The notes beneath the pieces are model-generated. The model did not search any database. It was not told the origin of the DNA and saw nothing but the letters and a program-made list of their open reading frames with translations. A DNA stretch of 27,627 nucleotides from a virus. Location of the stretch: positions 1 to 27,627 of IMG/VR virus record IMGVR_UViG_3300026078_000076. One strand, 5' to 3'. The number at the start of each line of letters is the position of its first letter. Position 1 is the first letter of the stretch. Positions 3,032 to 6,773 of the stretch are shown piece after piece. The position numbers were made by a program, and so were the translations under genes.

Positions 3032-3703
3032 ATGGGTCTCGGATTGAGCACTGGTGGAACAGGTGGCGGAGATATCCAGCCGTACATCAACTATGACGCA
3101 AAGGCAGGAAGAATGTTCCGTGTCGATCGTTCTCAGGGCGGCGACGGAACGTGGCAGACGGACAAGGTGGAGATCACCAGCACCGTGCAGATGGTGATGG
3201 ACCTCGCCAACATCCGCGTTGGCTGGATCAACTACACCACGCAGGGGCCGGTTCGTAAGCTGGTCGTGCTCGGCAAGGAGCCGATCCCGCCGCGGCCGGA
3301 CGACAAGACCGCGGAAGGCAAGCCCGCCTTCAAGCAGGGGTTCGAGGTCAATCTTCTGCTCGACAAGAACAGCGGGGGCGGTGGTCCGCGTGTGTTCGGT
3401 TCCGCCGCTGGCTGCGTGATCGAGGCTATGGACGCCCTGCACGATGCCTATTCGGCGGCACCGGAGTCCAAGTCAGGCAAGCTGCCGATCGTCAAGATTG
3501 CCGGCGTGCAGCCGGTCAAGGCCGGCCAGTCCACGAACTACAAGCCGACTTTCGCAATCGTGAACTGGATCGACCGGCCCCAGCCGCTTGCTGGATCCGG
3601 CGCCCCTGCGGCTCCCGCGTCTGCCCCGGCCACCGGCTCGACTGTTGTGCCCCCTCCTGCACCGCAGCCGACCGCGATGGCCGACGCTTCTGACTTTGGC
3701 TGA
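3032..3703 (+). CDS. Putative ssDNA-binding/recombination accessory protein (223 aa)
   Basis: The protein has a compact, beta-rich N-terminal domain (about 1-175, with many short alternating strands). A Pro/Ala/Thr-rich flexible linker follows (~180-212), and the chain ends in a short acidic-aromatic tip, MADASDFG. A globular domain, a disordered Pro-rich linker and an acidic tip is the layout of many phage single-strand binding proteins. The gene sits between the recombination nuclease and the primase-helicase, where SSB genes commonly occur. I do not recognise a definite OB-fold motif, so the function is inferred from layout and position. The ATG at 3032 has a purine-rich site upstream (GAAGAGGGAGAG). 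Confidence 0.55.
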   Translation: MGLGLSTGGTGGGDIQPYINYDAKAGRMFRVDRSQGGDGTWQTDKVEITSTVQMVMDLANIRVGWINYTTQGPVRKLVVLGKEPIPPRPDDKTAEGKPAFKQGFEVNLLLDKNSGGGGPRVFGSAAGCVIEAMDALHDAYSAAPESKSGKLPIVKIAGVQPVKAGQSTNYKPTFAIVNWIDRPQPLAGSGAPAAPASAPATGSTVVPPPAPQPTAMADASDFG

Positions 3704-3814: not shown

Positions 3815-5947
3815 ATGAACGCCGTGGTTCAGCCGATTTTCACGCCGGACGTGACAGCCATGCGGCTGCACGTCGAACATTTGTTTGGCGGGTATCTCGA
3901 CGGCTGCCATGACGGCCTGATCGAGCTTTCCTGGACCGACACCAAACCTGATCAGGCTGGCCGCTACCGGCTGGCCAACGCCAAGCTGTTCGGAACCGAC
4001 AAGTTGGACGATCTTGTCGATGAGGCCGCGCGTCTGAACGCGCAGCCCATGTGCAACGTCTATATCGGCGCCGCGCTCCGCCACCCCGACACAGCACCAT
4101 TCGGCCGCGCCCAGGACCGTGACGCATGGGCCTTGACGTGCGCCTACGTTGACCTCGACGACGCTGAAGCCGCCACCAACGCGAAGGACATTTACGGGCT
4201 CGATAAGCCAACGCTTGTTGTCGTGACTGGCCGCGCGCCCCACACACGGGCGCAGCTCTGGTGGAGGCTGGAAGAGCCCCTGAAGGACGCCAACCACTGG
4301 CCGACGCTCCTACGTGGCTTTGCGGCCCGTCTGCATGGCGATTCCACAGTAACAAACCCGTCCCGCGTCATGAGGCTCGCCGGCACGATCGCGTGGCCGG
4401 TCAAGCCGGGGCGTACCGTGGAACTCACTTCTATTGCCCCTCTGCGCGAGCCTGGAGCCCGCGAATATTCGCCCGAGCATTTGGCGCAGGTCTTTCCGCC
4501 GATCGCTGGCGGGCCTCCCGTGGCCCAGCCAACGCATATCAACCACACCACCAATTCCCTTGGCCTTGCCGACAAGATCAGCGACGGCCGCGAAGCCTAT
4601 ATGCGGGATACCATCTCAGCCTGTCTGATCGAGCTGATCGGGACAACCGGATCCTGCCCGACCGCGCAAGAACTGAACGACGCGGCATGGCCACAGTATG
4701 AGCGTAAGGTAGATCTGACCCGAGGCGGCCGTGGTGCCGATGAGTTCGCCCAGAAGTGCGCCTACACGGTCACCAGGTTCGAGCGGGGAGACATCCGCGG
4801 TATCGAGACGCTGGATAAAGCGATCGAGGTTTACCAGCGCAAGGAAGCGCGGAAGCCGGCGCAACCCGCAGCGCTTCCGCAACCAGCCGTTCAGGCCACA
4901 GCAATCAAGACGACGAACTTTCTCACTTTGTTGACTGAAGACGTCCCGGAAGAGCCCGACATGATCGAGCCTGGGTTTGCCGGGCCCGGTTCGTTTGTCC
5001 TCATTGCCGGCCCACCCAAGGCCCAGAAATCGTTCCTTCTTCAGGAAATGTTGGTAGCGGCCGCAACCGGCGGCGCTTTCCTGGAGGGCACGTTCAATTG
5101 CACCCGTCCGCTGCGCGTCTTTTACCTCCAGGCCGAAATGAACCGGAAGCTGCTGCGCAAGCGGGCCCGGGAGTTCAAGCTACTGACAACGGAAGAAAAG
5201 GGGCTGCTGGCAACCAACCTGATCGTGTCGGAGCGCTTCCACATGATTCTGAACGAAAACGGAGTCAAACTGGCCGTCGAAACCATCAAGGCAAGCTTCC
5301 CCGGGGAACCGCCGGACATCATTGCGGTAGATCCGCTCGCCAACGTCTTCGACCAGGACAACGAGAACGACAACACCCAGCTCATGCGGTTCCTGACCGG
5401 ACGCATTGAGGCTGTACGCCAGGCCATTAACCCGAACGCCGCGGTCGTGATGGTGCACCACGCTACCAAGCGCAGCAACGAAGATATGGCCCGGGATCCA
5501 TTCATCGCCATCCGAGGTGCCGGCGCGCTGCGCGGCTATTACGACTCGGCGATCGTCATTTTCCGCGCAGGTGAAGAGACCAAGGCACGCAAAGTGCACT
5601 TCGAATTGCGAAGCGGAGAATCCCCCGAGCCCATGACCGTGGAATTGGTCAATGGCAGGTTTGTGACCGTCTCAGAGAATGCCAGTTCGATTGACAAGCC
5701 GATGGCTCGGCAAATGTTGGCTGTCCTTAGGGAAGCCTGGAATGCCGAAGAGCCGCTGTCGATGCATCCGCAGTCGCGAAAGGATGGGCGGTTTGCCGTG
5801 TTCAATCTGTCGGAGCAGTTCAAGGTCCGCGCCAAGGAGGTCGATAAACTGCTCAATCAGTGGATGCTCAACCGCGTGGTCGTGATGCGTCCGAGGGTTT
5901 CTAGAGGCCGTCCAGCGGGGCTCGAAGTGGTCGGTTCGATCGATTGA
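3815..5947 (+). CDS. PrimPol primase-helicase (AEP/RepB-like primase + AAA_25/RepA-like ATPase)
   Basis: This 710-aa replication protein fuses two enzymes. The N-terminal archaeo-eukaryotic primase domain shows the metal-binding motif AYVDLDDAE (~109-117), GRAPHTRAQLWWRLEEP (~140-156) and RLAGTIAWPVKPGR (~187-200); these are the three landmarks of RepB-like/PrimPol primases. The C-terminal RecA-fold ATPase has a Walker A-like AGPPKAQKSF (~396-405), Walker B IIAVDPLANVFD (~501-512) and a sensor-like VVMVHHATKR (~544-553), as in RepA/AAA_25 hexameric helicases. Walker A has Gln where the usual Gly precedes Lys-Ser. A winged-helix-like C-terminus is possible (FNLSEQFKVRAKEVDKLLNQ). It would prime and unwind at the phage origin; a repeat cluster with an AT tract and hairpin follows immediately. 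A purine-rich Shine-Dalgarno (AGGCAGGAAG) precedes the ATG. Confidence 0.85.
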   Translation: MNAVVQPIFTPDVTAMRLHVEHLFGGYLDGCHDGLIELSWTDTKPDQAGRYRLANAKLFGTDKLDDLVDEAARLNAQPMCNVYIGAALRHPDTAPFGRAQDRDAWALTCAYVDLDDAEAATNAKDIYGLDKPTLVVVTGRAPHTRAQLWWRLEEPLKDANHWPTLLRGFAARLHGDSTVTNPSRVMRLAGTIAWPVKPGRTVELTSIAPLREPGAREYSPEHLAQVFPPIAGGPPVAQPTHINHTTNSLGLADKISDGREAYMRDTISACLIELIGTTGSCPTAQELNDAAWPQYERKVDLTRGGRGADEFAQKCAYTVTRFERGDIRGIETLDKAIEVYQRKEARKPAQPAALPQPAVQATAIKTTNFLTLLTEDVPEEPDMIEPGFAGPGSFVLIAGPPKAQKSFLLQEMLVAAATGGAFLEGTFNCTRPLRVFYLQAEMNRKLLRKRAREFKLLTTEEKGLLATNLIVSERFHMILNENGVKLAVETIKASFPGEPPDIIAVDPLANVFDQDNENDNTQLMRFLTGRIEAVRQAINPNAAVVMVHHATKRSNEDMARDPFIAIRGAGALRGYYDSAIVIFRAGEETKARKVHFELRSGESPEPMTVELVNGRFVTVSENASSIDKPMARQMLAVLREAWNAEEPLSMHPQSRKDGRFAVFNLSEQFKVRAKEVDKLLNQWMLNRVVVMRPRVSRGRPAGLEVVGSID

Positions 5948-5953
5948 TACCGT

Positions 5954-6089
5954 GCACAGCAAGCACAGAAGGGGGTCGCAAGTGTTTGAAATGATTGATG
6001 CACAGAAGCGGCACAGAAGCTGCACCAAAGCACAGAAGGGGGTCGCAAGTGTTTGGAATCGTTGAATGCACAGAAGCACTGCACAGAAG
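5954..6089 (+). repeat. Iteron-like cluster of GCACAGAAG (six exact, two degenerate copies)
   Basis: Exact copies of GCACAGAAG begin at 5963, 6000, 6011, 6030, 6068 and 6081. Degenerate copies lie at 5954 (GCACAGCAA) and 6022 (GCACCAAAG). All are in the same orientation. Many same-strand copies of a short word directly after the replication gene is typical of initiator-binding iterons. No gene is predicted in this 223-bp gap. Confidence 0.8.
5961..6055 (+). repeat. Two copies of a 28-bp identical direct repeat, 67 bp apart
   Basis: The 28 bp at 5961-5988 and at 6028-6055 are identical (starting AAGCACAGAAGGGGGTCGCA). Similarity continues imperfectly for a further ~20 bp into the next GCACAGAAG copy. 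The larger unit therefore looks like an ancestral tandem duplication of about 67 bp, which itself carries the smaller iterons. Confidence 0.85.
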
Positions 6090-6090
6090 C

Positions 6091-6137
6091 ATATATATAT
6101 ATATCCCGCTGCGCTTCGCAGCGCGCGGGAATATATT
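6091..6137. other. AT tract plus hairpin; with the iterons a probable replication origin
   Basis: (AT)7 occupies 6091-6104. It is followed by CGCTGCG (6107-6113) and CGCAGCG (6117-6123), a 7-bp stem with a 3-nt loop. Outer arms CCC (6105-6107) and GGG (6127-6129), then AT-rich flanks on both sides (6099-6104 and 6131-6136), can extend the pairing with a bulge. There is no T-run, so it is not a standard terminator. An easily melted AT tract beside iterons, with a strong hairpin, next to a primase-helicase gene is the usual composition of an origin. The function is inferred. Confidence 0.55.
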
Positions 6138-6170
6138 GCTCGGGCAAGCCTCTCTTGGCGGGAGACTTTG

Positions 6171-6773
6171 ATGGCGAAAACATCCGTTTCCCCCATCGAC
6201 ACCAGACCGCTTGGCGGGTCCCACTCATGGGCGCGCAGCAATGGCACCTACATCTCGGGGCGCGCCTACATCGACGGCGCCGACGAGACCGCCTGCGAGA
6301 TGGAGGCCAAGTGGGGCGCTGACCGATTGCGGCTTCTGGTCTCGCCCGAGCTGCGGGAGAAGTTCGACCGCCAGCGCTACCTGTTCAACCAGGCGATCTG
6401 GCATGGCGACCTCGAAGCGGTGCGCCGGGAGTCAGGCCGCATGGTCAACGCCTGGCTGGCGCTCGATGCTGCCGCGACTGCCGCCGGCAAGGTGGGGCTG
6501 TCGCCGAAGGTCTGGGAGATCGCGGACGAGGGCAGGGTGATCGCGATCGTCCCGACCGACCATGACGCTGCGGCCGTCAATGCCGATGGGCGCGAGGTCG
6601 TGGTGTACACGCTCGAAGAGATCGGACGGCTGTTGCGTGCGTACCCGGATATCGCGGTCGCCAAGCAGGTCTTCCCTGGCGCGACCGTGAGTGAAATCCG
6701 GAAGTCGGTCGAGGATCCCTTGAATGCGATCCCCGACACCAAGGACGATCTGAACGACGAAATCGGATTTTGA
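6171..6773 (+). CDS. Phage protein of unknown function with SSB-like C-terminal tip (200 aa)
   Basis: A soluble 200-aa protein. Its middle (MEAKWGADRLRLLVSPELRE, then FDRQRYLFNQAIWHGDLEAV) is strongly helical and resembles a family common in Hyphomicrobiales phages. The C-terminus is an acidic run ending DDLNDEIGF, which closely resembles the DDDIPF tip by which bacterial SSB recruits replication and repair proteins. The gene follows the putative origin and has a good Shine-Dalgarno (GGCGGGAGA before 6171). I infer a replication or recombination accessory role, possibly recruiting host SSB-interacting proteins. The fold is not recognised. Confidence 0.7.
   Translation: MAKTSVSPIDTRPLGGSHSWARSNGTYISGRAYIDGADETACEMEAKWGADRLRLLVSPELREKFDRQRYLFNQAIWHGDLEAVRRESGRMVNAWLALDAAATAAGKVGLSPKVWEIADEGRVIAIVPTDHDAAAVNADGREVVVYTLEEIGRLLRAYPDIAVAKQVFPGATVSEIRKSVEDPLNAIPDTKDDLNDEIGF

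Follow-up and report, generated by a model that had tools for sequence, protein, structure and literature searches.

A probable iteron-type replication origin directly behind a fused primase-helicase gene in an uncultivated phage

Introduction

What function does a short, repeat-rich stretch of DNA serve when it lies immediately behind a primase-helicase gene in a phage? The window analysed here, a whole stretch of 27,627 nucleotides, is a fragment of an uncultivated virus, and the tract in question occupies positions 5954-6137. A second contig (L002; also L519-L521) matches the window with 99.98% identity over 27.6 kb, and its 120-bp terminal overlap closes a circle of 43,920 bp. This complete genome encodes an integrase, an S24-type repressor, two DNA methylases and a Lar-like protein, and the phage is therefore probably temperate. 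A first-pass annotation had read the tract as a plasmid-like origin inside a phage. We examined this proposal through the architecture of the locus, the neighbouring protein and its relatives, and comparison with known replication systems.

Results

The iteron array

The locus comprises the following features (window coordinates).

3815-5947, plus strand: putative initiator gene, 710 aa; AEP primase (PrimPol), RSF1010 RepA-like hexameric helicase and C-terminal winged-helix-like domain
5690-5944, plus strand: C-terminal domain of this protein, residues ~626-710 (AlphaFold model); candidate iteron reader
5954-5962, plus strand: degenerate iteron GCACAGCAA, read from sequence; GCACAGCA is the main iteron of relatives L012 and L413
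5963-5971, plus strand: iteron 1, exact GCACAGAAG
5979-5997, plus strand: box copy 1, CAAGTGTTTGAAATGATTG; four mismatches to TAAGTCATTGAAATCATTG, with 0/40 shuffles as good
6000-6008, plus strand: iteron 2, exact GCACAGAAG
6011-6019, plus strand: iteron 3, exact GCACAGAAG
6022-6030, plus strand: degenerate iteron GCACCAAAG, read from sequence
6030-6038, plus strand: iteron 4, exact GCACAGAAG
6046-6064, plus strand: box copy 2, CAAGTGTTTGGAATCGTTG, 67 bp after copy 1
6068-6076, plus strand: iteron 5, exact GCACAGAAG
6081-6089, plus strand: iteron 6, exact GCACAGAAG
6088-6140, no strand assigned: extended hairpin (DNA fold) with a GC apex (7-bp stem, 3-nt loop, 6107-6123)
6091-6104, no strand assigned: (AT)7 tract, read from sequence; 5' lower stem of the extended hairpin in the DNA fold
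6171-6773, plus strand: next gene, 200 aa, no Pfam or PHROG family; bounds the putative origin on the right

The six exact copies of GCACAGAAG begin at 5963, 6000, 6011, 6030, 6068 and 6081, all on the plus strand and within 127 bp, and the word is absent from the rest of the 27.6-kb window. The same six are the sole copies in the circular 43,920-bp genome when both strands are checked, so that several direct repeats of one orientation, found nowhere else in the replicon, are present as in iteron origins. In 200 simulated 27.6-kb sequences no 9-mer occurred more than three times per 184 bp (the maximum being 2 in 196 runs and 3 in the other 4), whereas the tract has 6 copies and the rest of the window reaches a maximum of 2. 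Part of the array has been duplicated at a distance of 67 bp (5961-5998 and 6028-6065, 92%), and the duplication holds a 28-nt perfect repeat, AAGCACAGAAGGGGGTCGCAAGTGTTTG.

The first-pass annotation had listed six exact and two degenerate direct copies, the 67-bp duplication with its 28-bp perfect repeat, and an (AT)7 followed by a 7-bp stem with a 3-nt loop, and each of these elements was found where it had been placed. Its view that the tract contains no gene also holds, since the overlapping open reading frame most likely begins at 6171, a start shared with relatives. An Rfam search returned zero families at the gathering threshold.

The AT tract and hairpin

The (AT)7 lies directly 3' of iteron 6, placing an AT-rich region, and hence a candidate melting region, beside the iterons, and a similar AT-rich stretch is found in L003, L012 and L413. 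Folded as DNA, 6086-6140 gives a single hairpin as its best structure (z=-5.0, matched by 0/200 shuffles), in which the lower AT stem pairs with AATATAT 3' of the GC stem. According to this fold the (AT)7 and the GC hairpin are not independent and can form a single extended structure, which we regard as a candidate primase-loading (ssi-like) hairpin or cruciform; its location parallels that of the hairpins at which RSF1010 loads its primase. A role in priming is suggested by analogy with the ssi sites of RSF1010 and by an enrichment of structure right after the last iteron, which across 42 loci is modest (mean z -0.83 vs -0.25, p=9e-5). The hairpin sequence is variable among relatives, and a strong hairpin is missing in some. 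Scans of 5900-6250 for RNA-type terminators and sigma-70 promoters found none.

In GC-rich relatives, short palindromes (CCCCTA..TAGGGG or CCCCTAAAGGGG) stand in place of the AT tract directly after the last iteron, as at L379:4115-4140; they also occur downstream of the initiator in L406, L361 and L459.

The probable initiator protein

The protein encoded directly upstream of the array carries a Pfam AAA_25 match (E=1.5e-21). The predicted fold of residues 1-300 matches the PrimPol of S-2L (6zp9, E=1e-11) and RSF1010 RepB' (3h20/3h25, E=8e-8), the latter having a structure solved with its initiator DNA as well, while residues 387-581 give a PDB profile match to the RSF1010 helicase RepA (1g8y, E=9.5e-22), on which the full model aligns with a TM of 0.73 on target. 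The AlphaFold model of the C-terminal domain, with mostly good confidence, shows a helix-helix-helix-strand-strand arrangement that is winged-helix-like. Judged from these models, the protein resembles a single-chain combination of RepB', RepA and a RepC-like DNA reader, which bears out its earlier description as a PrimPol-RepA-like initiator.

Conservation of the layout

To gauge how general this arrangement is, homologues of the protein were gathered blind to repeats, and the 330 bp after the gene were scanned in the 55 for which downstream sequence exists. In 29 of them this stretch holds a significant iteron array, equalled by 0/100 shuffles, and most full-length primase-helicase-wHTH proteins are among these 29. 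Strong arrays were seen behind 35% of homologues vs 3% of other ORF ends. Many distant helicase-only homologues are without iterons, as expected for other systems. A single-protein scan of viral contigs returned the protein itself as its sole match.

The isolated Rhizobium phage RHph_N65 and the isolated Roseobacter phages CRP-811/821/823/831, together with EBPR siphovirus 5, also have the fused gene followed by an iteron cluster, in most cases with a palindrome; the iteron word is group-specific and the records consulted carry no origin annotation. RHph_N65 was found via the box described below, and the CRP phages, EBPR siphovirus 5 and RHph_X2_25 via the protein. Their iteron words, with those of two further loci, are as follows.

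Rhizobium phage RHph_N65: GGCGGAGAT, ~11 iterons at 34.9-35.1 kb
Roseobacter phages CRP-823/811: ACTACAAA
Roseobacter phages CRP-831/821: TTTATACA
EBPR siphovirus 5 (metagenomic record): GGCGGAAGT, also written GGCGGAAGTA
RHph_X2_25: GCGTGACA, also written AGCGTGACA
L003: GCACCGAAG
L361: TGCGGAAGT

In L003 the next gene is swapped for another and the repeats are retained with the initiator. In the complete genome the cumulative GC skew begins to rise at the iterons, but after detrending its minimum falls at another place; in RHph_N65 and two CRP phages, too, the minimum is not at the repeats. The gene at 6171-6773 itself recurs behind several such putative origins (L004, L006, L315 and L446).

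Which domain probably reads the iterons

Iteron consensus similarity was compared with the identity of three regions of the protein across 27 loci (22 after deduplication). For the C-terminal domain there is a correlation (r=0.44 with a permutation p of 2e-4, and r=0.42 with p=8e-4 on the deduplicated set; partial beta 0.59/0.48). For the primase there is none (r=0.06; deduplicated 0.00), and for the helicase hardly any (r=0.14; deduplicated 0.09), a term that vanishes in the joint fit. The gene for the putative cognate initiator adjoins the repeats, and its C-terminal identity predicts iteron similarity. From this co-variation, the C-terminal domain probably reads the iterons. The first-pass annotation had anticipated that the iteron word would change with the initiator; among relatives the repeats are kept with the same protein, and it is the C-terminal domain with which the word co-varies.

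Natural domain swaps agree with the iterons following the C-terminal domain. L004 (4001-6118, compared with window 3815-5947) is a natural chimera whose primase is ~91% identical over residues 1-357 and whose helicase and C-terminus are unrelated to those of the window; its iteron is TGAACGAT and the box core is kept. L400 and L429, with C-terminal domains 86% identical and primases only 20% identical, have an iteron common to both. The helicase and C-terminus of L413 and L012 are related to those of the window, and both loci have the iteron GCACAGCA.

A conserved 19-bp box between the iterons

A second motif, absent from the first-pass annotation, lies between the iterons: a 19-bp box, TAAGTCATTGAAATCATTG, built as a 9-bp tandem (AARTCATTG x2). 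Both copies in the window are degenerate and sit inside the 67-bp duplication; L003 and L413 have versions closer to TAAGTCATTGAAATCATTG at the site of copy 2. In a scan of viral contigs the exact 18-mer of the box was found in at least 120 viral stretches, vs 10 for the reversed 18-mer. Among the matches listed, nearly all are intergenic, and the preceding base, left free in the search, is T or C in ~94%. Boxes often come in pairs next to iterons whose sequences are unrelated, and the box core persists where iterons are swapped. When pairs of boxes separated by 55-79 bp were sought blind and the results pooled with the earlier loci, 53 distinct places emerged; 24 of these lie behind a gene of the initiator family and 29 have iterons, and 57 bp is the commonest spacing. 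The box is not universal, being absent from CRP-831 and several distant homologues. A text search of open-access papers found no description of it.

We considered and rejected the idea that the box is limited to this initiator family, as paired boxes also occur at sites where a search of the surroundings found no such protein, and the box occurs in T7-like Rhizobium phages without iterons. A PHROG search of the genes near helicase-less boxes found no common replication protein. The box was also rejected as a chromosomal site: the exact 18-mer occurs in 0/398 Pseudomonadota genomes, and the 42 matches to its 14-mer core in 385 genomes (vs 4 reversed) lie mostly inside ORFs, where ATT GAA ATC ATT (IEII) looks like codon use. 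Most weaker matches in phage and plasmid records are intragenic, in jumbo and T4-like phages, and seem fortuitous.

The T7-like examples are Rhizobium phage Palo (L382:4001-4020, near the left end) and TRX32-1 (L381:4001-4020), both with the box in a non-coding stretch and without an initiator of this family. A box-like sequence, AAGTCCATTGAAATCATTGA, together with inverted partial copies TGAAATCATTGAGC and GTAAATCATTGCC, occurs in the mapped attP of Rhizobium phage 16-3 (L485:539-798).

Discussion

A detailed comparison of the locus and its relatives leads us to propose that the 150-bp tract is very probably the iteron-type replication origin of this phage, and the protein encoded directly upstream its one-polypeptide initiator. 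This reading draws on the domain folds, the arrays recovered from a protein-first search, the co-variation, the natural swaps and the fact that the repeats stay with the initiator, as well as on precedents in SaPI (PMC7581432) and pRN1 (PMC4234260). The plasmid-like origin inside a phage that had been suggested at the outset is therefore supported by the initiator folds, the conserved layout and the co-variation of iterons with the C-terminal domain.

It is plausible that initiation would begin with the C-terminal winged-helix domains of several initiator subunits binding the GCACAGAAG iterons, while a further factor, probably a host DNA-bending protein, acting on the two AT-rich boxes would help to wrap the array. 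In this model the AT tract beside the last iteron would melt and the RepA-like domain would load as a hexamer, following which the PrimPol domain could use the exposed hairpin for the first primer, as RSF1010 RepB' does at ssiA/ssiB. The host replisome would then take over, a step we propose because none of the proteins scanned, which represent part of the phage's genes, was recognised as a DNA polymerase.

In its components the system resembles the oriV of RSF1010 (IncQ), which shares a RepA-like hexameric helicase, a RepB'-like primase, and iterons beside an AT-rich stretch and hairpins. The helicase and primase types of that strand-displacement system are both present here, as judged by profile and predicted folds. 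However, RSF1010 divides the work over three proteins (RepA, RepB' and RepC), whereas the phage has one polypeptide, with no separate RepC and a C-terminal domain that seems to substitute for it. RSF1010 also loads its primase at two oppositely oriented ssi hairpins, whereas one extended hairpin was found here, and the phage differs further in having its origin directly behind the gene and extra conserved boxes between the iterons.

The Rep/ori of SaPI and the alpha/ori of phage P4 resemble the phage in having an initiator helicase with a C-terminal DNA-binding domain that reads iterons. We know of no paired box in SaPI or P4 origins. In SaPIs the origin sits immediately 3' of rep, and the C-terminal domain of Rep reads it (PMC7581432); the phage iterons are likewise directly downstream of the initiator gene, and co-variation points to C-terminal reading. 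The enzymes differ: SaPI has a Rep-type helicase and P4 another helicase type with a Toprim primase, whereas the phage combines an AEP primase with a helicase of the RSF1010 RepA/RecA type. Replication of pRN1 depends on 166 bp downstream of its primase-helicase gene, and both pRN1 and Bordetella phage BIP-1 have a stem-loop behind a gene that encodes primase, helicase and winged helix in one protein, the stem-loop being essential in pRN1 (PMC4234260). The likeness to pRN1 ORF904 and BIP-1 extends to the AEP primase, the helicase, the C-terminal winged helix and, for pRN1, an essential element directly 3'; the pRN1 type nevertheless has an SF3 helicase and a large stem-loop without iterons, whereas the phage has a RecA-type helicase and iterons. 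Because it departs from RSF1010, SaPI and pRN1 in at least one tested defining feature each, we regard the system as a separate form of iteron origin outside all three. A limited search of open-access text found no earlier description of it.

If correct, this would give a large phage family a predicted origin, an initiator and a directly testable specificity code, and the dozens of natural pairs of iteron and C-terminal domain could yield a recognition code for that domain. It also suggests that the three replication proteins of RSF1010 occur in phages as one protein with the origin attached, while the common box points to a factor on which many phages appear to rely.

Several other explanations merit consideration. 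The repeats could be operators or copy-control sites for the initiator or a regulator, acting through autoregulation or handcuffing, with the true origin elsewhere; plasmid iterons are established as serving control as well as initiation, and the array adjoins a transcription unit. We think this improbable, as the array lies 3' of the initiator gene and not before it, the region 5900-6250 yielded no promoter-like site, no 9-mer elsewhere in the window exceeds two copies within 184 bp, and the AT tract and hairpin belong to the unit. Still more remote is a packaging (pac/cos) or partition site: the terminase lies ~3.5 kb downstream of the tract and centromere-like sites can be short repeat arrays, yet the repeats co-vary with a domain of a replication protein, they are not lost when the downstream genes are exchanged, and neither ParA nor ParB was recognised among the proteins scanned. 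A narrower doubt concerns the hairpin, which might terminate transcription of the initiator operon ahead of the next gene and have no role in replication, leaving only the iterons (and AT tract) to matter. GC hairpins 3' of genes are frequently terminators. In pRN1 a terminator hairpin is dispensable and a different stem-loop is required (PMC4234260). We nonetheless consider it less likely than not that the hairpin is only a terminator, given the absence of a T-run after it, the negative terminator scan and the recurrence of its position just past the last iteron among relatives.

One candidate for the factor that reads the box is IHF. IHF sites are usual in origins and attP, and the textbook IHF consensus is YAANNNNTTGATW. 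The box may be a site at which IHF (or an HU-like protein) bends the DNA and so wraps the iteron array: apart from one mismatch, TAAGTCATTGAAA fits the core of this consensus, T or C precedes AAG in the great majority of the matches listed although that base was unconstrained, and the mapped attP of phage 16-3 contains a box-like sequence. We hold this possibility with some reserve, however, as conservation spans ~19 bp in the form of the 9-bp tandem, beyond what IHF needs, L004 and the first box of L005 retain TTGAAATCATT but lose YAA, and the box is missing from the 398 Pseudomonadota genomes searched, while in chromosomes its shorter core is mostly in ORFs. Tentatively, the box may be a phage-wide cis-element of replication origins, recognised by a single conserved factor that probably belongs to the host; around this element phages would exchange initiator C-terminal domains and iteron words together. 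Were this so, many unrelated phages would have a common origin scaffold in which the specificity cassette is replaceable.

Other arrangements of the box also occur. At least three copies, 20-65 bp apart and with no visible iterons, lie in L428 (reverse strand, ~3137-3245) and L436 (3540-3700). In the related contigs L411 (2010-2083), L418 (reverse strand, ~122-196) and L419 (reverse strand, ~3153), where no known initiator gene was recognised in the neighbours scanned, the boxes and their flanks are conserved and the iterons differ, the respective words being TGTGAGAA, ATGTTACA and GTAAGAA.
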